Shown: in pieces, positions 1 through 13,055 of the stretch
Numbering within the stretch: the first letter of the stretch is position 1
Layout of the letters: the number at the start of each line of letters is the position of its first letter
Assembly (NCBI GenBank): GCA_947452235.1
Contig: CANGBK010000007.1
Location: forward strand, 1-43,573
Length of the DNA: 43,573 nucleotides
Direction: 5' to 3'
Source: Micrococcales bacterium
GTDB taxonomy: Bacteria; Actinomycetota; Actinomycetes; Actinomycetales; Microbacteriaceae
Position numbers and translations under genes: made by a program
Notes under the pieces: generated by a model
Databases searched by the model: none
What the model saw: the letters and a program-made list of their open reading frames with translations, nothing else
Told to the model about the DNA's origin: nothing

Positions 1-212
1 AAAACTGTTGGATCTAAATCGAATGGCAGGTTACTCTCTGAGATGTGAATCATCATTTTGTAAACATGATGAGCTACCGGTAGCACGTGACTAGGCGTTC
101 TGACGTAGAACTCTCTTAGACTTTTTGGACTGGAAGCCATGACCGTCAAAACGTTGTTGTATGGACGTTCACGAACAATCTCGACAAAACTTTCTTGGAA
201 TTGAAAGAGCAT
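1..212 (-). CDS. Unrecognised protein, N-terminal part (runs off left edge)
   Basis: On the minus strand a frame opens with ATG at 212 and stays open for 70 codons to the window edge, with an in-frame stop just upstream (231-233). Beginning MLFQFQESFVEIVRERPYNN, the translation looks protein-like: mixed hydrophobic and charged residues, and a His-rich stretch near residue 55. No family is recognised. No good Shine-Dalgarno sequence precedes the ATG. It is co-directional with the next two minus-strand genes. A 70-codon open frame at this base composition is unlikely but possible by chance, so this is a moderate call. The rest of the gene lies outside the window. Confidence 0.45.
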   Translation of the reverse strand, partial: MLFQFQESFVEIVRERPYNNVLTVMASSPKSLREFYVRTPSHVLPVAHHVYKMMIHISESNLPFDLDPTV

Positions 213-322
213 TTGGTCTTTTCTAGGAACTCACCGTTTTAGGTAAGTTTTACAGACTAGACCCCGAGTGAGGACAAACATGGCCTTGTTCGCCGTGGGC
301 TAAAACTATTTATGTAACAGGC

Positions 323-1111
323 TTATTTAGCTTTTTTCAATTCCAAAGTTGAGGCAGCTCTAATGTAGGTAACACCAGTTTCTTCATTTCTGATCTTCAC
401 GTAAGGGTTAGGGTTGCCCTGATTTGAGTAGCCAATAATCAATCCACTGATTCCATCTCTCTTAGAGACAGCTACTGCTCCAATAGGGAGTTCATCTATT
501 GGCATTTCTGGATTGAATTTGCTAGAGGATTTTTTCACTGGCTTCTTGTTGCCTTGTTTCACAGCTGAGGCCTCTTCAACGGCCGCCATCACTTTGAATG
601 TGACGATAGTGGGGTTGTCGATATAGGTCTTTGAAGATGCCAGAGCTTTTACTGCATCGAATATCTCAGTAACACCAATTACCTGAATAGGGTAGCCACC
701 GGCGATCTCTTTACCACACCATTCGCGAATTACATCCTCGTCGCCCTGCTTGAATTTACCAGCGTATAGTCGCATCTCAATTTGTTCAACTTTGTAGCCG
801 TAAATTGCAGCGGCTTTCTCAATAATGTCTTTTCTAAGTCCCCTGTTGTTGAGAATTTTGTAGCCTTCCGCCCCCGAACCAGGCTTTTTGCCAGTCACTT
901 CATCGCCTCTTACCCCACCGCTTCCGAAGAAGGACTTCACGCTAGCAAGTACTAGCTTGTCTCCTCGAGCTCCAATGAGATCAATTTCATAACCGTGTTC
1001 TTGGAATACCCCGTTCTTAGCTTTTTTTCTGGCCTTGAACTTAGTTGGTCCTGAAACGGATAGTCCTTCAGCGCCCATCGCTAGGGCGACAAAACTTTCA
1101 AATGCTTCCAT
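323..1111 (-). CDS. Hypothetical protein, possibly PD-(D/E)XK nuclease-like
   Basis: 262 aa, no signal peptide or membrane segment. A strong ribosome site (AGGAG, 7 nt before the ATG) fixes the start. The N-terminal third has a pattern recalling restriction-endonuclease-fold proteins: E42-I-D44, then a hydrophobic beta strand ending S57-V-K59-S. The usual acidic residue of the (D/E)-x-K motif is Ser here, so catalysis is doubtful. A Lys/Ser-rich linker (about residues 187-200) leads to a C-terminal beta-rich module with a GLIIGYS motif, possibly an SH3-like or DNA-contacting barrel. It lies beside two other nuclease-type genes, which favours a nucleic-acid or defence role. That role is inference. 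Confidence 0.8.
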   Translation of the reverse strand: MEAFESFVALAMGAEGLSVSGPTKFKARKKAKNGVFQEHGYEIDLIGARGDKLVLASVKSFFGSGGVRGDEVTGKKPGSGAEGYKILNNRGLRKDIIEKAAAIYGYKVEQIEMRLYAGKFKQGDEDVIREWCGKEIAGGYPIQVIGVTEIFDAVKALASSKTYIDNPTIVTFKVMAAVEEASAVKQGNKKPVKKSSSKFNPEMPIDELPIGAVAVSKRDGISGLIIGYSNQGNPNPYVKIRNEETGVTYIRAASTLELKKAK

Positions 1112-1221
1112 GTGAATCTCCTCTGGTTGATGTCAATAATAGTTTTAGCTCCGTGGATGTTCCCGGAGATCTGAATCTTGTAAGTGAAAAGTTAACTTGC
1201 TGTTATCTAGCTTGTGAAGTG

Positions 1222-2145
1222 TTACATCTCTTCATCATCGTCGTTCTGAAGATCGCACTTAGGGCATAACCATTCAGGTGCGTTCTCAGCAACAATGCAA
1301 CCCATTGAAACATGACCTGCTGGTGGATCGCCCATCATCATGCCGTAGATTGTCTTAAGCATTCTGCTTCCACACTCATTACAGTTCTTCCACACAAGCT
1401 CATGCCAATCGATAGCTAGATTTGCGCGCCGATCAAAGAATTTGCAAACATCACAGTCTTCACCAGGTCCTGCAACTTCAGGCTCGTTCAGATTGGTATA
1501 GATGTCAGCCAGTATGTTCTCAACCCATCCTGAATTTCCCTCATAGGAAACAAGGTTGGATTCGAAATGTAAGGTGTTGTTGAATGAATCTTCTTTTTGA
1601 GTCGCTGTTACATAAACCCAGTAGCCAATGTTTGAAACTTCAAAACCGTTTTTGCGAAGCAACCATTGGTAGATCTCAAGCTGTCTGCGGTAGCCGTCAT
1701 AGAACCCACCCTCCCCAAGTTGTGTAACAGCTTGTTGTCTTCCAGTTGCTTTGTAATCAACGACATACAAAACACCTTTGCTATCAACCCAGATGTCATC
1801 AACTGCGCCAAATATTGTGAAGTGATTGTCACTAGTTGTGTGCTGCACTCCGGTGAAGTTATGACGCCATTTTTCTAGGTCCGGATGTTGGAAGGGAATT
1901 AGATCAAGTCCATTATATTTGAGGATTTGAGGAACAGTCTTTGCCTGTCTATGAATGTCGAATTCCTTCTTCATGAGGTTATCCACCGCAACGTTCAAAG
2001 TGAACGGAATACCACCCGGTTGTTTGATCCCATATTTGGCATCTAAAACAAAGCAACGCGGACAACGAATAAACATTTCAATTTTTGAGCGAGACATTTT
2101 GTGTGGTGATGCCTGACCCGGAACATAGGCTACTGATTTTGCCAT
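1222..2145 (-). CDS. Cas4/RecB-like PD-(D/E)XK nuclease with zinc-ribbon tail
   Basis: 307 aa. The core carries the RecB-family nuclease signature: acidic D116/D117 in GAVDDIW, the D130-Y-K132 motif after a beta strand, and the QLEIYQ helix (Q155-Y159). These are the metal-binding and catalytic positions of Cas4, AddB and RecB nucleases. Cysteine pairs C28/C31 and C231/C234 flank the core and could hold an Fe-S cluster or zinc. A separate C-terminal Cys set (C255, C258, C294, C297) looks like a zinc ribbon. The protein ends in an acidic tail. It is divergent from the T5orf172 gene across a repeat-bearing intergenic region. No CRISPR array or other cas gene is visible, so it is not called cas4. 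Confidence 0.85.
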   Translation of the reverse strand: MAKSVAYVPGQASPHKMSRSKIEMFIRCPRCFVLDAKYGIKQPGGIPFTLNVAVDNLMKKEFDIHRQAKTVPQILKYNGLDLIPFQHPDLEKWRHNFTGVQHTTSDNHFTIFGAVDDIWVDSKGVLYVVDYKATGRQQAVTQLGEGGFYDGYRRQLEIYQWLLRKNGFEVSNIGYWVYVTATQKEDSFNNTLHFESNLVSYEGNSGWVENILADIYTNLNEPEVAGPGEDCDVCKFFDRRANLAIDWHELVWKNCNECGSRMLKTIYGMMMGDPPAGHVSMGCIVAENAPEWLCPKCDLQNDDDEEM

Positions 2146-2208
2146 CTGACTTCTCTTCTCTCGACTCCAAAAATAACTTTCAATTGCTGCACATTATTCC
2201 CGCGCATC

Positions 2209-2236
2209 TATAACGATTCAGCGATTTATAACGATT
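2209..2236. repeat. Direct repeat pair TATAACGATT in divergent promoter region
   Basis: TATAACGATT occurs at 2209-2218 and again at 2227-2236, 18 nt start to start, in the 158-nt gap between two divergent nuclease-type genes. TTTCAATT also occurs twice nearby. The arrangement suits a regulator binding two faces of the helix, but no regulator is assigned. Confidence 0.4.
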
Positions 2237-2303
2237 TTCAATTCGACGTAATTAGACCCAATCGGGAACTTAGAGTTAATTCCTACAATAACTTGGAGTC
2301 AAA

Positions 2304-3338
2304 TTGAGATTCAACCCAGGCACTATCTACTTTGTTCGTGAAACAACCGACGACCAAGGTGGTCTATCAAGCAGTGTGAAAATCGGTTTAGTAGAAGACC
2401 CTAGAACTGCGCAACAAAGACTGTCAGAACATCAAACCGGGAACCCAAGAAAGCTAGTGTTAAATGAAGATCTTCTTATTCACACAGATGCTGTCAAATA
2501 CGTGGAATCGCAACTTCACAAGACCTTTGCGCCACACCGTATAAGCGGCGAATGGTTCCGATTTGATAGTGAGGCCGCTGTACGCGAGGCCGCGGACCTG
2601 GCGCAGACCTACGCCAAGCAGGTCGGCGAGAAAATGCCATCATTCGAAAAAGCTAAAAATCTAAAGTTAGTTCTAAGCGAAGGAAATGTTCGTGCGGCAT
2701 CCGAGACCATACTAGGCATAGCCAAGGAGGTTTCCCTGGCCTCTTTGACTATCGAAGCCTTTGACCAGCTAATTTCTCGCATAGACTCTGTTTTCAAGAA
2801 TGTTATCGCTGAAGAGGGCCCTGTTGCGCTTGAGCGAATAATCAAGGTTATCAATGTCGTTCCAGACCCAGCTTTCAGCGTTACTGAATTCAAAAAGGAA
2901 TTCAATAAATCCAGACCTGAACTGATTGAAAAATGCACTGTTGAAGAGCCAAAGCTGTCCGAAGACTTCAAGCTGTTCGTCGAACTTACCTCCGACGCTT
3001 TTTCTAAAGAGGTTACGGACTACATTTCTACTGCTAGCAGCGTGATTGAGAAAGCAATCGCAGAAAAGGATTATTTCCGTCTAAACGAGTTGAAACTTGA
3101 AATTAAGAGACTGAAGGCACCGCTTGAGTGGATCGTCGAATCCGGCGAAGCGGACATCAAGGTTGAGTGCGGAACGGCACCTGGAATTGCAGGTGTTTGT
3201 TCCTGGGTGCGCAAAATTACTACTAAGAAAAGCTTCTCAAGCGGGATACTCCGAGAGCTTGAGCCAGCGCTCTACGAACGCTTCGTTATACAAAAAGAGC
3301 CTTACACACGCGAAGTGTTCATCGGCTACAAGGCGTAG
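2304..3338 (+). CDS. T5orf172/MUG113-type GIY-YIG domain protein
   Basis: 344 aa, TTG start preceded by GGAG at 2295-2298. The N-terminal 90 residues match the T5orf172 branch of the GIY-YIG superfamily: a first strand TIYFVRE in place of GIY, VKIGLVED in place of YIG, then R-x-x-x-HQTGNP and a final VESQLHKTF...GEWF element. GIY-YIG domains are single-metal DNA nucleases; T5orf172 members occur in phages and islands. The remaining 250 residues are mostly helical, with no recognised domain. Downstream is a RecB-helicase fusion in the same direction after a 79-nt gap. Nuclease activity is inferred from the family only. Confidence 0.8.
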   Translation: MRFNPGTIYFVRETTDDQGGLSSSVKIGLVEDPRTAQQRLSEHQTGNPRKLVLNEDLLIHTDAVKYVESQLHKTFAPHRISGEWFRFDSEAAVREAADLAQTYAKQVGEKMPSFEKAKNLKLVLSEGNVRAASETILGIAKEVSLASLTIEAFDQLISRIDSVFKNVIAEEGPVALERIIKVINVVPDPAFSVTEFKKEFNKSRPELIEKCTVEEPKLSEDFKLFVELTSDAFSKEVTDYISTASSVIEKAIAEKDYFRLNELKLEIKRLKAPLEWIVESGEADIKVECGTAPGIAGVCSWVRKITTKKSFSSGILRELEPALYERFVIQKEPYTREVFIGYKA

Positions 3339-3417: not shown

Positions 3418-6400
3418 ATGTACATTCGAGACAATCTTTGGTCATTCAATACTCGAGATCTCATGCGAGCTTCATCTTGTGATCACTGCACTTCTTTAGC
3501 TGTAGCTAGAACCCTTGAAATACCAGATGTCTTGGCAGTCCTTCGAGAATACATCGATGCTGAAGATGAGACCACTCTGGCTCAAAAATACGGAGTGTTG
3601 TTTGAAGCCGCACTCATGGATGAGCTTGAATCATCGGTTGCCTCTGGTGTAGTTGGTGCGCCTGAAAAAGAGGGTGATCTTGATCAAACAATTGAACTTA
3701 TGCAAACCGGAATGCCGATAATTTACCAGGGTGGGCTGGAACGCAAATTTGGTTCAACGATTTTCCGTGGTAGGCCAGACTTTTTAGTTCGCCATGACTG
3801 GGAGCTCTTGTTCGTTGATGGAAAACTAACAGCGAGAGTAAGAGATGATTTTGATTCATCTCTTGGTCACAAATACATTGCATACGATGCAAAATATGGA
3901 GGTAAGGCTAAGCCTGCTTATCTTTTGCAAGTCGGGCTCTACGTTGATGCATTAGACGCCTTGGGCTTTAAGGCGGAAGGTGTCAGACATGGATTAGTTC
4001 TTGGTTCAAGAACTATTGAAACTTATGAAGAAATCGAAATTGTCCCTGCAATGCGGCTTGCAAGAGGAAAGATTGCAAAGATCATTGATGCAGCCGAGGC
4101 AGCTAAAGCAAACAATGATTTAAAACACTTCTCTGCTTCTGAACTTGCATGGCACTGTCCTTCGAAACAGAACTGCGATATTTGTGAATATCCTGAGTTA
4201 TGCAAGAAAGATCGTCTCGCTAAAGATGATTTAGTCCAGGTAGCAAACATCACACAATCGCAGATTGCTCGCTTAGCGACTTCTGGTATCACAACTATGC
4301 GCGCGCTATCTATTGCTGGTGACTCACAAAGACCTAACAAGATGACTGAAGAGACCTACAACAAGGTTCGCCTTCAAGCTAAAGCACAAATTGAAGCAAT
4401 TGATACGGGCAGCCCTGTTCACTACTTACTCCCTGATTCAGCTATTCAATATCTACCGCCCAGAGCACCGCTTGATATCTTCTTTGATTTTGAGGGTTTC
4501 CCTTACTACACCGAACGTGGTGGGCTTGAGTATCTCTTCGGTAACTACGACTGGGGAACTGGAATAAATGAGGGTCATCCTAGGGATGATCTGTTCACTG
4601 AGTTTTGGGCTCACGATCGTGCTGAGGAGAAGATTGCCTTTGAGCAGTTCATGCTTTGGGCTGTTGATCGCATGAAAAGAGACCCTAAGGCTCACATCTA
4701 TCACTACGCAAGCTATGAAGTTTCAGCCCTGAAGAGACTTGCGAATAGACATGGTGTGTTTGAGAAGGAAGTTGATTGGTTAATCTCTACTGGTCGTCTA
4801 GTAGATATGTTCAACATAGTTAGAAACTCTTTGGTCGTCGGTGAAGAGAGTTACTCCATCAAGAAATTGGAAAGACATTACAACTTTGTTAGAAGCAGCG
4901 ATGTCTTGAAAGCTTCCGCGAGCATTGACGAATATGACCGTTGGCGCGACTTAGTTGATCTTGTTAACAACCCTGCTATTTCGGATGAAGACAAAGTTGA
5001 AGCCGCGGCAGAAGCTGAGTTGGTTTATGGTGAGTTGCGCCTTTACAACCTTGAAGATGTTTGGTCTACCCGAGAGTTATACAGGTGGCTTGAAGGTATG
5101 GACGGGGCATGTTCTAAATTTGACGAACCTGACATGGATTCAGGCGATGAGGAAGAACGTAAATCAAATAAGACTATTGAAGAGCTGGCGGCACTGCAGG
5201 CTCAAACTCAAGCCCTGTTCGACAAGGTCGCTGATCATGAATGGGGCATTGACCCTGATGCTGACTACAGAGCACAAATCTGGCTAGCTCTTACCCACTC
5301 GATTCTTTATTACAAGCGTGAAGACGTAATGTTCTGGGCTGACCTAAATATGAGAGTTGCTATGGATGAGGAAGCTCTTGAAGCCGAACGTGGTGGGGGT
5401 GTGATTAGAGACATCGTTGAGTTGGATCGTAAGACCAAAGAACGCAAGGATGGGACCTTCTACCAAGAGATTACTTACCAAGCTGAGCTTGATCCGGATG
5501 ATTTGTTTAGCCCTAAAGAAGGGTTGGATATCGTTACTCGTTACAAAGACCCTAAAAAGATTCAACGCTGGGACTTCGGAAAAGTTCAGAGCGTTGAGGG
5601 CAGCACAGTAACTTTCACAAGGCAAACAACAGATAAATCCATAGGATTTGCCCCTAACGCAATCATTGATGCGGTTCACATTCCGACCACCTCCAAGCAA
5701 GCGGCTCTTTTGAAGCTTGCAACGGATATTGCAGCCGAGTGGGGTTCGCCTCAAAATGAACCTCCGAGGTCTCCTGCAATTATGGACATCCTAATGAGGA
5801 GAGCGCCAAAGCTAAAAGGTATGGACTCACTCCCTAAAGCAGATACCAATGACTATCTACCTGCAGTTAAGACAGCCATCAAGGCTTTAGATCATTCAGT
5901 ACTTGCTATCCAGGGTCCTCCGGGTTCAGGTAAAACTTATCTCGCATCAAGAACCATCGCAGAACTTGTTGCTGCGGGGAAACGTATCGGTGTAGCAGCC
6001 AACAGCCACAGTGCAGTTGAAAACTTATTGGAAGCCTGCATTGATGCTGGAGTAAGCGGAACTTCAATTGTGAAGGTGCAACGGCCAGGAGAAGAAGACC
6101 GTCCGTGGACAGTTAAGAAAGCCACTGGCAGCGCTGCAACTTACATGAAGAATGCGACCGGCGGTTACGTTGTTGGTGGGACTAACTTTTTCTTCTGCAA
6201 TAAGGACATCACTCCTTACAAGCTTGACTATTTGTTTATTGATGAAGCGGCACAATTCTCTTTGGTAGATTGCATGGCAGTTAGCGCTATGGCGGACAAC
6301 ATTGTTTTGATGGGTGACCCTCTACAGTTACCTCAAGTGGTTTTAGCTGTTCATCCCGGTGGTGTTGAGAACTCGGCTCTCGGTCACTACATGGGAAATC

Positions 6401-7011
6401 ACAGTATTCTGCCTTCAAGGATGGGTTATTTCATTGAAGTCACCAGAAGATTGCATCCTGAAGTTAACAATGCAGTTAGCTGGTTGGCGTATGAAGGCAA
6501 ATTGCGTTCACACGACGTGACTAAAGAGCACCTGATAGATGGACATGAACCAGGTTTAATAACTGTTCCTGTTGCGCATGAGGGAAATTCAACCTCCAGT
6601 GAAGAGGAAGCTGTTGAAGTGTTGAGACTGGTGAAATCCCTTTACCGCGAGGATCAACAGAACAGTGTGCTAGTTGTTGCTGCATACAACGCTCAAGTGG
6701 ACTTGCTTCGCCAAACATTAGATCGTGCTGGATACACAGAAGACAAAGTGATGGTTGGAACAGTTGATAAATTCCAAGGTCGTGAAGGGATGGCGGTGAT
6801 CTATAGCTTTGCGGCTTCTTCGAGTTTTGATGCGCCAAGAGGTCTTGAGTTCCTGCTAGATAGAAACAGATTGAACGTTGCTATCTCTAGAGCCAAAGCA
6901 ACCTGTTACATGGTTTTCAGTGAAACTTTATTGGAGAGCCAGTTCAAGAGCGTAGCGGAGGTCAAGGCTGTGAGCAGACTTGCAGGACTCCTTGAGATGG
7001 CTGCTAAATAG
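3418..7011 (+). CDS. TM0106-type RecB nuclease / RNase H-like / SF1 helicase fusion
   Basis: 1197 aa in three parts. (1) A RecB/Cas4-like nuclease (about 1-265) with GRPDFLV near 118, DAKYG near 157 and a QVGLY helix, ending in four Cys (near 247, 253, 256, 262; C-x5-C-x2-C-x5-C) typical of an Fe-S nuclease. (2) An RNase H-like exonuclease region (about 350-560) opening with DIFFDFEG and closing with YNLEDV. (3) A DNA2/NAM7-type SF1 helicase: Walker A GPPGSGKT at 833-840, Walker B DEAAQ at 942-946, then GTVDKFQGREG and RNRLNVAISRAK near the C terminus. Such fusions are known in actinobacteria and linked by context to DNA processing or defence. The ribosome site is weak. Its end overlaps a convergent gene by 8 nt. 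Confidence 0.9.
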   Translation: MYIRDNLWSFNTRDLMRASSCDHCTSLAVARTLEIPDVLAVLREYIDAEDETTLAQKYGVLFEAALMDELESSVASGVVGAPEKEGDLDQTIELMQTGMPIIYQGGLERKFGSTIFRGRPDFLVRHDWELLFVDGKLTARVRDDFDSSLGHKYIAYDAKYGGKAKPAYLLQVGLYVDALDALGFKAEGVRHGLVLGSRTIETYEEIEIVPAMRLARGKIAKIIDAAEAAKANNDLKHFSASELAWHCPSKQNCDICEYPELCKKDRLAKDDLVQVANITQSQIARLATSGITTMRALSIAGDSQRPNKMTEETYNKVRLQAKAQIEAIDTGSPVHYLLPDSAIQYLPPRAPLDIFFDFEGFPYYTERGGLEYLFGNYDWGTGINEGHPRDDLFTEFWAHDRAEEKIAFEQFMLWAVDRMKRDPKAHIYHYASYEVSALKRLANRHGVFEKEVDWLISTGRLVDMFNIVRNSLVVGEESYSIKKLERHYNFVRSSDVLKASASIDEYDRWRDLVDLVNNPAISDEDKVEAAAEAELVYGELRLYNLEDVWSTRELYRWLEGMDGACSKFDEPDMDSGDEEERKSNKTIEELAALQAQTQALFDKVADHEWGIDPDADYRAQIWLALTHSILYYKREDVMFWADLNMRVAMDEEALEAERGGGVIRDIVELDRKTKERKDGTFYQEITYQAELDPDDLFSPKEGLDIVTRYKDPKKIQRWDFGKVQSVEGSTVTFTRQTTDKSIGFAPNAIIDAVHIPTTSKQAALLKLATDIAAEWGSPQNEPPRSPAIMDILMRRAPKLKGMDSLPKADTNDYLPAVKTAIKALDHSVLAIQGPPGSGKTYLASRTIAELVAAGKRIGVAANSHSAVENLLEACIDAGVSGTSIVKVQRPGEEDRPWTVKKATGSAATYMKNATGGYVVGGTNFFFCNKDITPYKLDYLFIDEAAQFSLVDCMAVSAMADNIVLMGDPLQLPQVVLAVHPGGVENSALGHYMGNHSILPSRMGYFIEVTRRLHPEVNNAVSWLAYEGKLRSHDVTKEHLIDGHEPGLITVPVAHEGNSTSSEEEAVEVLRLVKSLYREDQQNSVLVVAAYNAQVDLLRQTLDRAGYTEDKVMVGTVDKFQGREGMAVIYSFAASSSFDAPRGLEFLLDRNRLNVAISRAKATCYMVFSETLLESQFKSVAEVKAVSRLAGLLEMAAK

Positions 7012-7264
7012 GCTCTTTGCCGCAATCCACCATGTCAACACGGTGTTTGCAGGACTTATCGAAGACTATCCAGCTGCCTCGTTTAGCTGCTTTTGCGTCT
7101 TTGGTGTGTGGATCACACATAAATTCAAATAGGCTGCAAACTGGGCAGATGAGTCTGTGGGTTGCAGCCCCTAGGCACTCCATGTAGTCACAGTTAACAT
7201 CAAAATCAAGATGGTCAATGAGTTCAGTTAGGTCCTTAGTGCTGCCTTTGTTTTGACTGCTCAT
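7004..7264 (-). CDS. Small Cys/His-rich protein, probable zinc binder
   Basis: 86 aa, preceded by a strong ribosome site (GGAGG, 5 nt before ATG), which argues it is genuinely translated. It has seven Cys and several His: C25, C30, H36, C40, C43, C50, H53, C72, H74, C81, arranged as CPVC and CDPH knuckles. This suggests one or two structural zinc sites. No family name is recognised. It converges on, and slightly overlaps, the large helicase gene, and lies 42 nt upstream of the end of the HD-hydrolase gene, so it could be the distal gene of that leftward operon. Confidence 0.75.
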   Translation of the reverse strand: MSSQNKGSTKDLTELIDHLDFDVNCDYMECLGAATHRLICPVCSLFEFMCDPHTKDAKAAKRGSWIVFDKSCKHRVDMVDCGKEPI

Positions 7265-7306
7265 TTCGACCTCCGTTCAGCTCTCCCCGTGTGTAATAAC
7301 CCAATA

Positions 7307-7909
7307 CTACAACCCAGCTAATTCTTCTTCGGCCTGCTGATTGAGCACTATTGGTAAATGAATCCGCTTTTCGTAGAACTCTAATTCGGTTTCATTTAGT
7401 TGCAGTAGTTCAAGTGCATGAGCGTATTTTCTTTCGAAATATGAAGCATCGCTTGGAGATAGGTCTGCTCGTCTCTCAAAGTTACGGTTATCTGCAACAT
7501 CCGCTATCTTCACTAGCCTTGCCAAATGATTATTGTTTAGTCGTCTGTAATAAGCACTCTTATCCTTTTCGCCTTTGATTCTTGTGAGTAAAACCACGGC
7601 TCCGATAGTTTCAGAGCTAAAGCCCATGTCAATCAAATCTTTTTCTGTTACCGCTCCTAAAGGTTCATCCGCTGAGTCTTCAATAACATCGTGCAGCCAT
7701 GCAACGGCCAGCGCTGATTCAATGAGCTTGCTTTCGAGGGTGAGTCTGGTTGCAAGTATCTTTGCATTTTGAGCAACCCTTTTAGGGTGATCAATGTATT
7801 CAGCGCCTGATTTGTCTTTTTGGAATTCATGCACCACCTCAGCTAAGCGCTGAGGTCTTTCATCTAACGAAAGATTCTTTATCTCCGCAAACACGTCGTC
7901 TCTAGTCAA
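7307..7909 (-). CDS. HD-domain hydrolase, SpoT/MESH1-like
   Basis: 200 aa with an HD metal-binding set: H41, H73-D74 in AWLHDVIEDS, and D137 in KIADVADN. The E77-D78 pair after HD is the signature of the (p)ppGpp hydrolase branch (SpoT, MESH1). No synthetase, TGS or ACT domain is present, so it would be a small stand-alone hydrolase acting on a nucleotide such as (p)ppGpp or NADPH. The start is TTG with AAAGG about 11 nt upstream. It lies 15 nt after the TY-Chap-like gene in a chain of coupled genes, which suggests a job within that system. Exact substrate unknown. Confidence 0.85.
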   Translation of the reverse strand: MTRDDVFAEIKNLSLDERPQRLAEVVHEFQKDKSGAEYIDHPKRVAQNAKILATRLTLESKLIESALAVAWLHDVIEDSADEPLGAVTEKDLIDMGFSSETIGAVVLLTRIKGEKDKSAYYRRLNNNHLARLVKIADVADNRNFERRADLSPSDASYFERKYAHALELLQLNETELEFYEKRIHLPIVLNQQAEEELAGL

Positions 7910-7924
7910 TGTTTCTTGACCTTT

Positions 7925-8497
7925 CTATTGGTGATCTTCAATCTCTTGCTCCAACATATCTAAATGATGCCCTGGCAAAGCGAAGATAACTTTGTGTGGA
8001 TTTGTGTTTGACGCTTTTAGTCGGCCCAGCATGCGCATTTCCCCTACTCGGTCAGCCTCATGTCGATTTGGGAATGCCCAGAAATCTGTTTCAACAATGC
8101 CATAAATGCCAACAAGAGCGGTGAGGATTGCTTCTACAATCTCACTGGCTTGTGTATCCAGTGAAAAATATCTAACTATGTTTGGATTTCCTGAGGGATT
8201 ATCGCTGTAGTCATCTGGATTTACCTCCGGTAGTTGCCAGCCATAGAACTCAAGTTCTTGGAGCTGCAAATTAGTCAGCTGAGGTCGAACCATTAGGTTA
8301 GCTGCCAGTTCAACCTGCAACGTGTCATCAAACACTAACGCTTGAACAAAAGGTGAGGTGCTTGGACTCAAACCAAATTGCTTCGCATACGTTTGAACTT
8401 GAAACATTCCGCCAATGTAAGTTTGAATTAGTGAGGTTTCTAGAACCACAGCGAGATCATCCCACTGTGGTCCTAGAAAAGGATTATTAGTAACCAT
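7925..8497 (-). CDS. TY-Chap/YbjN-like domain protein
   Basis: 190 aa, no signal or membrane segment. The layout resembles the TY-Chap fold (type III secretion chaperone/YbjN-related peptide-binding domains): an N-terminal WDDLAVVLETSL helix, strands FVQALVF and LQVELAAN, a LQELEFYGWQLPE element, and an A-x-x-IVEAILTALVGIYGI helix. In actinobacteria such domains are known from predicted conflict systems, where they are thought to bind peptides or act as chaperones. The assignment is from remembered pattern, not a search. The ATG overlaps the upstream phosphatase stop (TAATG), so translation is coupled. Confidence 0.7.
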   Translation of the reverse strand: MVTNNPFLGPQWDDLAVVLETSLIQTYIGGMFQVQTYAKQFGLSPSTSPFVQALVFDDTLQVELAANLMVRPQLTNLQLQELEFYGWQLPEVNPDDYSDNPSGNPNIVRYFSLDTQASEIVEAILTALVGIYGIVETDFWAFPNRHEADRVGEMRMLGRLKASNTNPHKVIFALPGHHLDMLEQEIEDHQ

Positions 8498-9045
8498 TAG
8501 TTACTCCCCTCAACACCTCGACGCCAGAATTCAACATTTGTTTTAGTCAGCAAGTAATCCTCGAAGTGGCGATTCGTGATGGCACCTTCGCAACGCCTAC
8601 GTCGAATCAGCTTGATTGCTTCGGCAGCGGTATAACCTTCACGGATTAGAACCAGAGCCATCACTAACCCTGATCTATTCATACCAGCCTGACAACGAAT
8701 CAGAACTCGTTTACCTGACTTCCAGTCCGCGTGTGCTTCTCTAACCATGAAGTGAAGATCACGTTCAGGATCAATATCAGACATGTCACCATCAAGGAAT
8801 GCATAGCGAAGTTCTTTGACTTTAGCTCCAGGAGCATTCGCTCGAACATATAAAGTTGCAACGGTGTCGAAGTCTTTGTTGGTTACTAAGCCGGATACTC
8901 CGATGTCCCATTTAGCTCTAGCTGATAACTGACTTAGGTCTTCATTCAGATAAGCACCAATGACGTCGTAATCATCGGTTCCACCTTGATAAAGACCAGG
9001 GACGATTTCATCCCAAAGAGTGTTTGGATAATAAGGTTTAGCCAT
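8497..9045 (-). CDS. Dual-specificity-type protein phosphatase
   Basis: 182 aa. The PTP signature C-x5-R is intact: C118-QAGMN-R124 followed by S125, in RCQAGMNRSG. C118 is the nucleophile and R124 binds phosphate; an Asp in FLDGDMSD (D85 or D87) is the likely general acid. The size and compact fold suit a dual-specificity (DSP) phosphatase rather than a low-molecular-weight PTP. The C-terminal element EAIKLIRRRRCEGAI is also DSP-like. It overlaps the HDAC-like gene by 8 nt and the next gene by 1 nt, so all three should be made together. A phosphoprotein or nucleotide substrate cannot be told from sequence. Confidence 0.9.
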   Translation of the reverse strand: MAKPYYPNTLWDEIVPGLYQGGTDDYDVIGAYLNEDLSQLSARAKWDIGVSGLVTNKDFDTVATLYVRANAPGAKVKELRYAFLDGDMSDIDPERDLHFMVREAHADWKSGKRVLIRCQAGMNRSGLVMALVLIREGYTAAEAIKLIRRRRCEGAITNRHFEDYLLTKTNVEFWRRGVEGSN

Positions 9046-10018
9046 TTTGAACTAACCCCTTTCTAACTTGATTGTAGATAGTGCTAACGACTAAAGCCCA
9101 TGTCTCCGGTGTCTCCTTTAGTGGTTGGTAACCACCGGCTCCACCGATTAGGACTCTTCCGTCTGCGTGCTTAGTTGCCATTTCGGCAACCATGTTGGCT
9201 GCATAGGTGAAACCATCTGCAGTGAATTTGGCTAGCTCAACTAGGTTGCTAGAACCAAAGTGACCATCAGCTCCTGCAGCAAGCAAGATGACATCAGGTT
9301 TGTATGCATCGATGATTACTCTGGCTCCATCGATAGCTTCCTTGAACTCGTCATCGCTAGCACCTCGTCTGAGGTTGAAGTTGTAATTCAATTCAGCTGG
9401 GTGATGCAGTTCACCGGTGCCTGAGTTCTGTAGCCAGGAATCATTCGGATAGGTTGATCCATTGTGGATGCTGATGCATGGCACACCGCTACCGCGTAGC
9501 ATGTGCGCAACACCATCACCCGCATGAATGTCCCAGTCTAAATACAGTGGACGCAATCCCGCATTCTTAAATGCTTTAGCTGCATAAGCCATGTCATTGA
9601 AGACGCAGAATCCCGATGCAGAGCTTGTCTTTGCGTGATGCTTAGCTCCCTGAGGATTAAATGCAACCTTAGAGACACCGCTCAAGATCTTCTCAACTGC
9701 TCTGATAGTCCCACGGAACATCTTGAATGCAGTCTCGCCCATGATTGGCTTTGTGCCATTCCATTGATTTGAAATGCCTTCAAGAACTTCAACAACATAA
9801 TCTTCTGAATGTGTTTCCTTCAGGATTCCTAGATCAGCATCTACGGTTGAATCACTGAAAGGTGCAATAACTTCAACATCATCACGCAGCTGCGCAACCA
9901 ACATTTCTGTTGCCAGCTTTGCTCTAATTGGATTAGTTGGGTGAGATCCATCACCTGGACCCAACAACCAATTTAGATAGTCGTCATGATAGACAACTGT
10001 TAGTTTTTCTTTACTCAT
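9038..10018 (-). CDS. Histone-deacetylase-fold amidohydrolase
   Basis: 326 aa, class I/II HDAC fold as in AcuC and acetylpolyamine amidohydrolases. Active-site residues are all visible: the His dyad H127-H128 in KHHAKTSSASGFC, zinc ligands D163 and H165 in LDWDIHAG and D252 in AAGADGHFG, and the transition-state Tyr Y298 in GGAGGY. It should therefore remove acyl groups from lysine or a small amide. No acetoin or acetyl-CoA synthetase genes are nearby, unlike AcuC loci. It is embedded between a 56-aa gene (8-nt overlap) and a phosphatase (8-nt overlap). This context suggests reversal of a protein modification within the operon. The substrate is unknown. Confidence 0.93.
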   Translation of the reverse strand: MSKEKLTVVYHDDYLNWLLGPGDGSHPTNPIRAKLATEMLVAQLRDDVEVIAPFSDSTVDADLGILKETHSEDYVVEVLEGISNQWNGTKPIMGETAFKMFRGTIRAVEKILSGVSKVAFNPQGAKHHAKTSSASGFCVFNDMAYAAKAFKNAGLRPLYLDWDIHAGDGVAHMLRGSGVPCISIHNGSTYPNDSWLQNSGTGELHHPAELNYNFNLRRGASDDEFKEAIDGARVIIDAYKPDVILLAAGADGHFGSSNLVELAKFTADGFTYAANMVAEMATKHADGRVLIGGAGGYQPLKETPETWALVVSTIYNQVRKGLVQNG

Positions 10019-10181
10019 TTGTTTCTTTCTTTACTTCTGCTTCGCTTGGTTTCATTTTTGAAACAAGCGTTCCGTGCAGCTTCTGAGCCCAGGCCAGAAG
10101 TTCTTCATCGGTCATGTCCGAAATCTTTGGGACACGAGTTAGAAGTACTTCTGCCTGTGGCTCATCACCTTGCTCACTCAT
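10011..10181 (-). CDS. 56-aa acidic/helical small protein of the vWA-HDAC operon
   Basis: A short minus-strand frame fills the gap between two operon genes. Its ATG (10181-10179) shares one base with the upstream stop (TAATG), and its stop (10013-10011) lies inside the HDAC start, in an ATGAGTAA overlap. The product begins MSEQGDEPQAEVLLTRVP and has a central TDEELLAWAQKLHGTL helix and a charged Lys/Glu tail. No family is recognised. The precise double overlap, matching the coupling of its neighbours, is the main reason to call it real. It could be an adaptor or regulatory subunit. Confidence 0.8.
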   Translation of the reverse strand: MSEQGDEPQAEVLLTRVPKISDMTDEELLAWAQKLHGTLVSKMKPSEAEVKKETNE

Positions 10182-10684
10182 TAGCCGAGATCTTCTTCGT
10201 CATCAGACCACACTGGTTCTGTGGCTTCAGATAGGAGAACTCGCTCCTGAGCTGCAAGAGCAAACTGCTCAGCAATAGCAATCTGCTGCTCCTCGGTAAG
10301 CTCATTGGCATCTGAGTGACGAAGCTTGTTGCCGTTAGCATCTAGCAACGGTGATCTAGCCTCATCGTCTTCAACCTGATGCATGGCTGCCCAAACATCA
10401 TTTAGAGCTCTGACAAACTTGGAACCACGGGTTTCATAAACTCTTGATTTGAAGTTGTCATATTGGATATCTCCACCGCGATCTAAGAACCATTCAATGA
10501 AAGGTCCATCACCAACGAAGACTCTGTATGGGTAGTCGCCTTGAGGCGAACGCTTAACTTCCACGTTCGCCTTGGCAGCTAGAAGCTCAAGAGACTGCTT
10601 GTCTCTGGCTCGAACAGTTAGAACACCTGGGTGCTCTTCCTTACGCACGACTGAGATAAATCCGGTGTCAGTGAAAATCCACAT
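10181..10684 (-). CDS. Conserved hypothetical protein (MWIF N-terminus type)
   Basis: 167 aa. It opens directly with a beta strand, MWIFTDTGFISVV, followed by LTVRARD, a short helix and the motif DYPYRVFV...W...GGDIQYDNFKSRV. I recognise this layout from unannotated bacterial proteins but know no function for it. The last third is acidic and low in complexity, ending in DDEEDLG. There is no signal or membrane segment. Its ATG overlaps the vWA stop codon (TAATG) and its stop overlaps the 56-aa gene, so it is firmly part of the operon. Confidence 0.85.
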   Translation of the reverse strand: MWIFTDTGFISVVRKEEHPGVLTVRARDKQSLELLAAKANVEVKRSPQGDYPYRVFVGDGPFIEWFLDRGGDIQYDNFKSRVYETRGSKFVRALNDVWAAMHQVEDDEARSPLLDANGNKLRHSDANELTEEQQIAIAEQFALAAQERVLLSEATEPVWSDDEEDLG

Positions 10685-11985
10685 TATTGACTGTCCTTAT
10701 CTCTAAAGTCATCCTGATCACGCTGAACACGACTGCGATACTCATTCATGCGCTTGCGCTTGATGTTGATATCCTGCATTGAGCTAAACGCCATCAGCGA
10801 ATCAGCCTGGTTCATCATTCTTCTTGATCCTCGAACACCAAGATGCGTGTTGTTCATGAATTCTTGAAGATCGATTCCTGCTGCTTCAAGTAGTGCATCA
10901 GCTTCACGTTCTTTACCCTGCTGATACAAAGCAAACGCTTGCTTCTGAATTTCTTGAATACGAACTAGTTTCAGTTCAGCAAGAATCTCAGGATCACGAT
11001 TCGGCTCAACCCAGTTTTCAGCTGCAACAAGTTCAATCTCAAAAGTTTCATCCTTTGAGATGTTTGTTCCGGTTAGGACATCGAAGTATTCATAAGAAAC
11101 TTTGATTCCTTGCTTAACACCAGGAGTCGATAACTCATGTCCATCGAGAACAACTTCGAAGAACACGTTCTTCTGCTGTCCACTTGAGAGGTCGCCCAGA
11201 GTCGTTTCAACGCGTCCAAAGTGTTTGTTCCACTTCTTCATACGACGACCAGCGATGATGTCCGACTTGCGGCCTAAGAAATCAGGTCCAAGCTGAATAC
11301 TGAAACGAACATCAGTCATAGTTTTCTGCAGAAGACCATCGATCTCCGCCTGCAAACCATTAACTGCTTCAGCTAACTCAATGGCAGCAATGTGATTTCC
11401 TTGACCACCTTCAGCGAGAGCTCCCATTAGGTTCTCGTCATAGCTTTGACCAATACCTATAGTCGATGTTGAGATGAAATGCTCTGTTGCTAAAGTTGCC
11501 ATTCGGCCTAGCTCAGCAGGATCTGTGATTCCAGAATTTGCATGACCATCACTTAGCAAGATGATTGAAGATTCAATACCTCTTGGAAGTGTTGTTGCCT
11601 CGACCAAACCTGCTTTATAGCCAGCTTCAATGTTGGTTGATCCACCGGATTGCAAATTAGCAATCTGGTTGGTGACCCAGTTCATGTCCTGAGACTTGAC
11701 TGGTTTGATTGGAACCTCGACTCTGACCTCATCATCGAAGCTGATCACGCAGATGTAATCTTCTGGATTTAGTCTTGGCAAGGTGTCTAGGATGGTGCTT
11801 TTCACCATTTCTAGCGGTCCGCCACTCATTGAACCTGAGCGGTCGATCACAAAGATCAATGACTTGGTCTTGTGTGCTGCTGCCTCATTAGCTGGGGCAA
11901 CCGATGCAGTGATCTCAAACATGAGACCTAGTTGGGTTGGGTTTCCAACCTGGCACTTATTGTGCTCTAATCGGGTAACTATCAT
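10684..11985 (-). CDS. von Willebrand factor A domain protein
   Basis: 433 aa, first gene of the leftward operon. A complete MIDAS metal site is visible: D48-x-S50-x-S52 in VIDRSGSMSG, T117 in GGSTN and D146 in LLSDGHANSG, so metal-dependent ligand binding is expected. The domain spans about residues 40-225. After it come a beta-rich region (about 225-320) and a helical tail with KLVRIQEIQKQAFALYQQGK. No signal peptide or membrane anchor is seen, so it acts in the cytosol. The start has an excellent ribosome site (AAAGGAG, 9 nt before ATG). vWA proteins often scaffold complexes with MoxR ATPases or kinases, but none is adjacent here. Confidence 0.93.
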   Translation of the reverse strand: MIVTRLEHNKCQVGNPTQLGLMFEITASVAPANEAAAHKTKSLIFVIDRSGSMSGGPLEMVKSTILDTLPRLNPEDYICVISFDDEVRVEVPIKPVKSQDMNWVTNQIANLQSGGSTNIEAGYKAGLVEATTLPRGIESSIILLSDGHANSGITDPAELGRMATLATEHFISTSTIGIGQSYDENLMGALAEGGQGNHIAAIELAEAVNGLQAEIDGLLQKTMTDVRFSIQLGPDFLGRKSDIIAGRRMKKWNKHFGRVETTLGDLSSGQQKNVFFEVVLDGHELSTPGVKQGIKVSYEYFDVLTGTNISKDETFEIELVAAENWVEPNRDPEILAELKLVRIQEIQKQAFALYQQGKEREADALLEAAGIDLQEFMNNTHLGVRGSRRMMNQADSLMAFSSMQDINIKRKRMNEYRSRVQRDQDDFRDKDSQ

Positions 11986-12048
11986 TTATCACATCTCCTT
12001 TAGATGATTGTTTGTGGAACATAACTATAAACCATTTATTTACGCATA

Positions 12049-12062
12049 TTATTCCCGAATAA
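12049..12062. promoter_or_regulatory. Palindrome TTATTC-CC-GAATAA, candidate operator
   Basis: A perfect 6-bp inverted repeat with a 2-bp spacer in the 123-nt region between the vWA operon and the NrtR-like gene. Its left half plus flank (ATTATTCCCG, 12048-12057) recurs at 2193-2202 in front of the nuclease genes. The position suits control of both divergent transcripts by the adjacent NrtR-like regulator. Confidence 0.5.
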
Positions 12063-12066
12063 CAAT

Positions 12067-12084
12067 TGGAATCTTTATATTCCA
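12067..12084. promoter_or_regulatory. Inverted repeat TGGAAT-N6-ATTCCA, candidate operator
   Basis: A perfect 6-bp inverted repeat with a 6-bp spacer, 4 bp downstream of the previous palindrome and just upstream of the predicted -10 box of the NrtR-like gene. A bound repressor would block that promoter, fitting autoregulation. Which of the two repeats is the true operator cannot be decided by eye. Confidence 0.45.
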
Positions 12085-12095
12085 TTTCTGTATGC

Positions 12096-12101
12096 TAATA
12101 T
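12096..12101 (+). promoter_or_regulatory. -10 box TAATAT of a predicted leaderless promoter
   Basis: TAATAT ends 7 nt before the ATG at 12109. No Shine-Dalgarno sequence lies between, so transcription probably starts at or next to the A of the start codon. Confidence 0.5.
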
Positions 12102-12108
12102 TTTATTT

Positions 12109-13017
12109 ATGACCACTGACATCTTTACTTCTAGTGCAGTAGACCTAGTGATCTTTACCGTTGTCGACTCAGACAAACTGTCTAAGCAGCTCTGGGATGA
12201 CTCTCTTGTCTCTTTTGGTCCATACAGGCCAAAATCCCCCGAAGGTCTCTCGCTTTTCGTTGTAACTCTGCCGGCTGATGAAGCCCTATATCCAAACCTT
12301 CATGGCCAAAGAGTTCTTCCCGGCGGCTATTTGGGGAAGGATGAAACTTTGGCAGAAGCATCTAGGCGTATAGCTAAACAGAGGCTTGGTCTTTCTCTAA
12401 ATACCAAGATTAGACAACTGGGAACATTCGATGAACCTAACCGTGACCCAAGAGGTAGAGTGCTGTCATTTGCATACTGGGCTATGGTCGATTTCGTTGA
12501 AATCAGGAAATACCTAGGGGGAAGAGACCAAATAGGGCTTGAACTAGTGAACTCACATCACTACATGAACACCTTCGCTAAGGAGAACTTTCCGCTTTAT
12601 CACTATGACGGTGTTTGCCGTTTTGGTAACAGAACAATGCCTTCGCCCAGCGCTTTGAGAGGTCACGCTAAAACCCTTACGGATCACTTACCTGGTGGAC
12701 GAATCTTGGGTCTAGATCACGACCAAATGGTCTTTTATGCATGGCGAGCATTGCGCCATGCCTTCACAGGAAAACTAGATCCGTTTAGGTTCTTGGGGCT
12801 AAACCCGTTGGGACTAGAGTTTCGGATTTCCGAACTCCATGAGTTCACAGAAATTTGCCGTGGCGAAACTATTCAACGTGACTACTTCAAGAGACAGCTT
12901 CTAAAGAACGAAACATACCTCCTAAACACAGGTAAAACTGATAGAAGTAGGCCAGGTAAACCAACTCAACTGTATAAACACATCAACGACAATCTTGATG
13001 TTACTGATACCGAATAA
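12109..13017 (+). CDS. NrtR-like regulator with degenerate Nudix domain
   Basis: 302 aa: an N-terminal Nudix domain and a C-terminal winged-helix region, the NrtR architecture (NAD-metabolism regulators that bind ADP-ribose or related ligands). The Nudix box starts at G73 with E79, R87, G94 and L95 conserved, but the catalytic glutamates of REUxEE are replaced by I88, Q91 and R92, so hydrolysis is very unlikely. The C-terminal region has the NrtR-like LEFRISELHEFTE, a basic RDYFKRQLL helix and a RPGKPTQLYKH end. It is divergent from the vWA-HDAC operon and likely represses it and itself through palindromes in the shared region. The role as ligand sensor is inference. Confidence 0.85.
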   Translation: MTTDIFTSSAVDLVIFTVVDSDKLSKQLWDDSLVSFGPYRPKSPEGLSLFVVTLPADEALYPNLHGQRVLPGGYLGKDETLAEASRRIAKQRLGLSLNTKIRQLGTFDEPNRDPRGRVLSFAYWAMVDFVEIRKYLGGRDQIGLELVNSHHYMNTFAKENFPLYHYDGVCRFGNRTMPSPSALRGHAKTLTDHLPGGRILGLDHDQMVFYAWRALRHAFTGKLDPFRFLGLNPLGLEFRISELHEFTEICRGETIQRDYFKRQLLKNETYLLNTGKTDRSRPGKPTQLYKHINDNLDVTDTE

Positions 13018-13055
13018 ATACTAGAAACTAAAGCACCCCTAACTAGACTCCTAGC

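Follow-up and report, generated by a model that had tools for sequence, protein, structure and literature searches.

The closest described relatives of the locus considered here are the ARG-centric anti-viral-ADP-ribosylation systems that Iyer, Burroughs, Anantharaman and Aravind predicted in 2022 (PMC9503650, section 3.8), in which ARG is the defining enzyme and ARPP-1 is a frequent, but not universal, component. Their anti-phage activity is a prediction of the same paper, and the literature searched yielded no experimental proof of such systems. The locus lies on a stretch of 43,573 nucleotides (hereafter the window) from a 1.2-Mb MAG of a Rhodoluna-like genus of the Microbacteriaceae (G000, completeness 93%). 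The genomes with which it was compared are mostly incomplete MAGs and many of their loci are cut by contig ends.

A block of seven genes occupies positions 7307-11985 of the window and encodes, in order of transcription on the reverse strand, a vWA protein (10684-11985), a conserved protein termed MWIF (10181-10684), a 56-aa protein (p56, 10011-10181), an HDAC-fold enzyme predicted to be a Zn-dependent deacylase (9038-10018), a predicted DSP-type phosphatase (8497-9045), a TY-Chap3 protein (7925-8497) and a SpoT-like HD hydrolase (7307-7909). An NrtR-like regulator is encoded divergently on the forward strand (12109-13017). The first-pass annotation had described six of these genes as coupled, with a seventh close behind, and both coordinates and junctions were reproduced: TAATG junctions (1-nt overlap) join vWA to MWIF, MWIF to p56 and DSP to TY-Chap, overlaps of 8 nt join p56 to HDAC and HDAC to DSP, and the HD gene starts 15 nt after TY-Chap. 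The gene set is found again across the genus, which goes beyond chance. PADLOC returned no match to any gene of the module.

The window shares with the ARG-centric systems, as set out in section 3.8 of PMC9503650, a Nudix-type one-component repressor (of the Nudix or WYL kinds, Pfam NrtR_WHD 27.4 bits), phosphatases of both the rhodanese-phosphatase-superfamily/DSP and HD types (DSPc 37.1 bits, HD 24.2 bits) and both of the alternative chaperones, vWA and TY-Chap3, each above its cut-off. It also resembles them in that no ADP-ribosyltransferase is coupled to the operon, neither that domain nor a sirtuin being present in the block or its flanks (ten proteins), and in that parts are gained and lost among relatives. 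In loci related to that of the window, ARPP-1 stands between NrtR and vWA (PF20208, 166.7 bits), the gene after MWIF is a Macro domain protein in two cases and HDAC in seven others, and an ARG-DSP fusion lies near the module in one genome (G008). Elsewhere in the phylum ARPP-1, MWIF, NrtR and ARG are found together, the vWA subfamily of the window adjoins ARG or ARG-DSP, and in one distant genome MWIF adjoins ARPP-1 and NrtR. In a sister genus a single operon, again with a divergent NrtR-like gene, runs ARPP-1, ARG-DSP, HDAC and DSP; beside the NrtR-like gene of that genus (L438:14172-16905) lie also a second gene with a vWA domain and one of 637 aa that has no Pfam match. The idea that HDAC is a strict replacement for ARG was rejected, as the two share an operon in the sister genus and are both found nearby in G008. 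The earlier suggestion of a wholly new system is not upheld, since the ARPP-1, Macro and ARG genes of the relatives match section 3.8 of PMC9503650. The window differs from the systems described there in having neither ARG nor ARPP-1; Pfam detected no ARG in the operon, neither gene was found in the genome at its 93% completeness, and ARPP-1 is likewise missing from the rest of the window. Since the operon lacks ARG and a search of the genome also gave none, it is, on its gene content, no full member of the predicted ARG-centric systems but an ARG-less variant. A further difference is the presence of a phage-shared HDAC-DSP pair and MWIF, which are absent from the main text of PMC9503650, the part of that work with which the comparison was made. 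As far as the sequences go, novelty lies in the HDAC-DSP pair, which hosts and phages have in common.

As the window has neither ARG nor ARPP-1, its link to ADP-ribose rests on the relatives and on the type of regulator. Macro domains are binders and hydrolases of ADP-ribose, and their appearance after MWIF where other loci have HDAC, the position of HDAC-DSP directly after ARPP-1 and ARG-DSP in the sister genus and the NrtR-like type of the sensor would all suit a scheme in which HDAC and DSP act on small molecules and not on proteins, deacylating and dephosphorylating ADP-ribose derivatives (O-acetyl-ADP-ribose, ADP-ribose phosphates) and so setting the level of the sensor's ligand. However, vWA and TY-Chap suggest protein clients and we know of no HDAC-fold enzyme with activity on ADP-ribose esters, so that this scheme is considered unlikely, if worth bearing in mind, beside the preferred reading of an ARG-less conflict module.

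The distribution of the genes within the genus is that of an accessory element. The vWA gene was found in 13 of 60 genomes of the genus and then in 15 of 67 (among those of high quality, 3 of 22). Where the contig allows, its neighbours are mostly the NrtR-like gene and MWIF, and HDAC, DSP, TY-Chap and HD are usually there too. HDACs of the window's clade occur in 6 of the 60 genomes, all of them vWA carriers (hypergeometric p about 3e-5), and the co-occurrence proposed earlier as a check was therefore found, the set travelling together across the genus. A fixed core-genome location, which had been named as an argument against a conflict or stress module, was looked for and the result was instead patchy presence and empty sites. 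In two genomes (G048 and G027) the helicase-nuclease gene, an 86-aa gene, UPF0114 and g167 are directly adjacent, and homology of the window's flanks to such empty sites (L283, L284) stops at 7292-7305 and restarts at 13034-13038, for which reason the module fits an accessory insertion of about 7306-13034, closely matching the 7307-13017 block. Patchy presence and co-occurrence mark the operon as accessory and also support the earlier reading of it as a conflict-type operon with vWA and TY-Chap. A foreign base composition was rejected, the GC content of the block being about that of the rest of the window. The same slot holds a different gene cassette in G016, and in G044 a similar cassette and the module occur together. 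This second cassette (L021:5296-10615, L275:3913-8786), its genes named by eye, encodes a 200-aa protein, one of about 395 aa, a lipoprotein-like protein of about 430 aa, a trypsin-like protein of 290 aa and an M48-like protease. In a comparison of the window with G033, its nearest relative, the MWIF DNA is 95 - 98% identical, and vWA and NrtR are mostly 67 - 85% identical, below the flanks, a contrast that fits either recombination or fast evolution. Several neighbouring genes were also recorded. The 86-aa protein (window 7004-7264) is Cys-rich and co-directional with the operon; it is present at empty sites and accompanies the module in some genomes. Positions 1-3338 of the window hold a fragment of an MWIF-like paralogue, a possible restriction-endonuclease-type gene, a Cas4-like nuclease and a GIY-YIG-like gene, which precede the helicase-nuclease gene at 3418-7011 and some of which also lie beside the module in L027 and L029. 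In another genome (G672, L439:7263-16846) an HDAC of the cellular clade stands alone, near GmrSD, an Eco57I-type methylase and helicases, which is a defence-island setting.

The divergent regulator combines a degenerate, predicted catalytically dead Nudix sensor with an NrtR winged helix, as the first-pass annotation had claimed. The winged helix passes its Pfam cut-off narrowly (27.4 against 27 bits) and the NUDIX domain falls below its own (18.7 against 21.1 bits); the Nudix box reads GYLGKDETLAEASRRIAKQRLGL, without REUxEE, the catalytic glutamates having been lost. The box is degenerate in every genus homologue aligned and intact in the distant relatives L191 and L197. The nearest solved relatives are AraR (5bs6) and 3gz5. 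The protein shares its domains and its divergent orientation with the NrtR family of ADP-ribose-responsive Nudix repressors, but differs from it in the loss of the catalytic glutamates, in an NCBIfam NrtR equivalog score of 34.8 bits against a cut-off of 400 and, if the motif described here is right, in having one site in the genome. That motif, the operator-like CGCATATTATTCCCG at 12043-12057, lies in the divergent intergenic region within a conserved stretch of about 12040-12063; its TATTCC block is kept in 10 of 12 NrtR/vWA or NrtR/ARPP-1 intergenic regions, and it is the sole match in the genome at 0 - 1 mismatch, the reversed control giving 0. The binding site suggested earlier, 12049-12084, overlaps this conserved motif in part, but its palindrome (about 12067-12084) shows no conservation among relatives. 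Since the motif is kept in most of the divergent regions and has a single copy in the genome, the locus is most simply read as having its own local repressor, which would act at one predicted operator. NrtR-type regulators govern NAD metabolism in other bacteria, and HD and DSP proteins are common enzymes, so that an ordinary stress or NAD-homeostasis operon with no tie to phage conflict might be imagined. Such an operon would not be expected from the patchy presence, the empty and swapped sites, the want of a second operator in the genome, the genes in common with phages or the defence-island company of the G672 HDAC, and it is regarded as improbable; a locally controlled conflict module is preferred.

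The vWA protein, a predicted peptide-binding chaperone (Pfam VWA 65.6 bits, E 8.6e-18), has the complete MIDAS attributed to it, residues D48/S50/S52/T117/D146 being invariant in 10 homologues. Among viral contigs only remote vWA matches and no NrtR were found, and the vWA subfamily had no match in 25 HDAC-bearing viral records in a search that had no positive control. TY-Chap3, a second predicted peptide-binding chaperone, confirms an earlier likeness with a Pfam score of 33.3 bits (cut-off 27), and no relatives of it were found in viral contigs. The HD protein exceeds its Pfam cut-off (24.2 against 22 bits) and scores 28.6 bits with NCBIfam RelA/SpoT, far under the cut-off; H41, H73-D74 and D137 are present and invariant, and its viral relatives are remote, with at most 42% identity over part of the protein. 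MWIF belongs to a conserved family with an N-terminal beta-alpha domain and gave no confident Pfam or NCBIfam match; it is a recurrent neighbour of vWA, which it follows in most genus loci where this is visible. Its AlphaFold model, which is of low confidence (mean pLDDT 66), had no PDB match at E < 0.1. Its relatives occur in 26 viral contigs, the best at 52% identity, upstream of terminase and in the same kind of phage as the HDAC carriers; host and phage copies are interleaved with weak support in the MWIF tree, which favours neither direction of transfer. For p56 there was no family match and no confident relative in the genus loci or the viral HDAC loci.

The HDAC-fold assignment has held up (Pfam Hist_deacetyl PF00850, 157.4 bits, E 6.5e-46), with the eight residues H127, H128, D161, D163, H165, D168, D251 and Y297 all present. 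Its fold and active site are those of the AcuC-type HDACs of actinobacteria, but it stands in a separate clade on a long branch. It is remote from the other HDACs in 396 genomes of the phylum (its own E is 1.2e-179, the next best 1.8e-37) and a family-wide search added four further members of the clade, in sister genera. A plasmid type was rejected, the best plasmid copies being AcuC-annotated and about 29% identical. The best fold match to the model was 5ji5 (Z 33.4 over 287 residues), and many HDAC classes lay within about 1 Z unit of each other, so that the fold, which suits many classes about equally, gives no guide to the substrate. One of them is msAPAH (6pht, Z 32.1, level with many others), and viral acetylpolyamine amidohydrolases, which are likewise virus-encoded HDAC-fold hydrolases, have been described (PMC9992855). 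The HDAC could on this basis be an acetylpolyamine amidohydrolase that frees spermidine, feeding phage replication and, in the host operon, polyamine balance. The described viral enzymes, however, come from giant viruses (Imitervirales), other than the phages here, which pair the gene with DSP near terminase; the tie among HDAC classes means that the fold does not decide, and such a role would not explain why the gene goes with DSP, vWA and TY-Chap. A polyamine role is accordingly thought very doubtful, and a protein deacylase working with DSP is preferred.

The same pairing is seen in phages. HDAC relatives were found in 155 viral contigs, whose hosts are unproven, and the best 80 of the 155 are 45 - 53% identical to the window's enzyme; another, at 40%, is in Microbacterium phage Magritte. 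A DSP matching that of the window (signature CQAGMNRS) is present in 67 of the 80 best viral loci, directly adjoining HDAC on one strand in 43, mostly with an overlap, and on the opposite strand in 23. Terminase and portal genes lie beside HDAC-DSP in the one viral locus tested and similar genes were seen in other loci read, and because these genes adjoin, the carriers examined are, to judge by gene content, tailed phages. No match to this phage HDAC family was found in PHROGs version 4. Since many freshwater phages carry the same pair, hosts and freshwater phages appear to have traded the HDAC and DSP genes, and the fact that both keep them together argues that the two enzymes work in one pathway. 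In the HDAC tree, with an AcuC-like outgroup, the 12 cellular copies form one clade (98/96) inside the phage clade, as they do without the long Magritte row (99/97), and the DSPs of the module likewise group as one clade (100/98) among those of phages. Transfer of the HDAC from phage to host is therefore favoured, though as a borderline result short of settled, because the AU test rejected monophyly of the phage HDACs at p 0.0496 only.

The block is probably an accessory, locally regulated phage-conflict module, an ARG-less variant of the ARG-centric type, for which we infer both the substrates and the anti-phage activity. The NrtR-like protein would repress the operon from 12043-12057 until infection gave rise to a ligand derived from ADP-ribose or NAD that released it; vWA and TY-Chap3 would then bind modified or misfolded proteins and present them to the enzymes, of which HDAC would strip acyl groups, DSP would strip phosphate and HD would cleave a nucleotide signal. 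The first-pass annotation had put forward loss or turnover of NAD as a putative trigger and mark removal as a putative task of the module. HDAC and DSP would form one two-enzyme unit, probably captured from phages. The chances seem evenly balanced that this pair is a mobile eraser unit that has moved between freshwater phages and an anti-ADP-ribosylation-type operon of the host, serving phages in an auxiliary or counter-defence role and taken over by the host module, in the window even without ARG. The variant suggests that anti-ADP-ribosylation systems may erase other marks too, acyl and phosphoryl, links host and phage through one enzyme pair and points to a freshwater-phage HDAC family outside PHROGs version 4.

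Two observations on the phage side may be added. In one subgroup of phage HDACs (L348, L360, L369) Asn stands in the DxH motif in place of the zinc-binding His (IDWDVNAGDGV), the host copies having His. The proteins of two HDAC-bearing phages (G528 and G536; L421-L422, L428) include a DNA modification protein of the Mom type and GNAT acetyltransferases.
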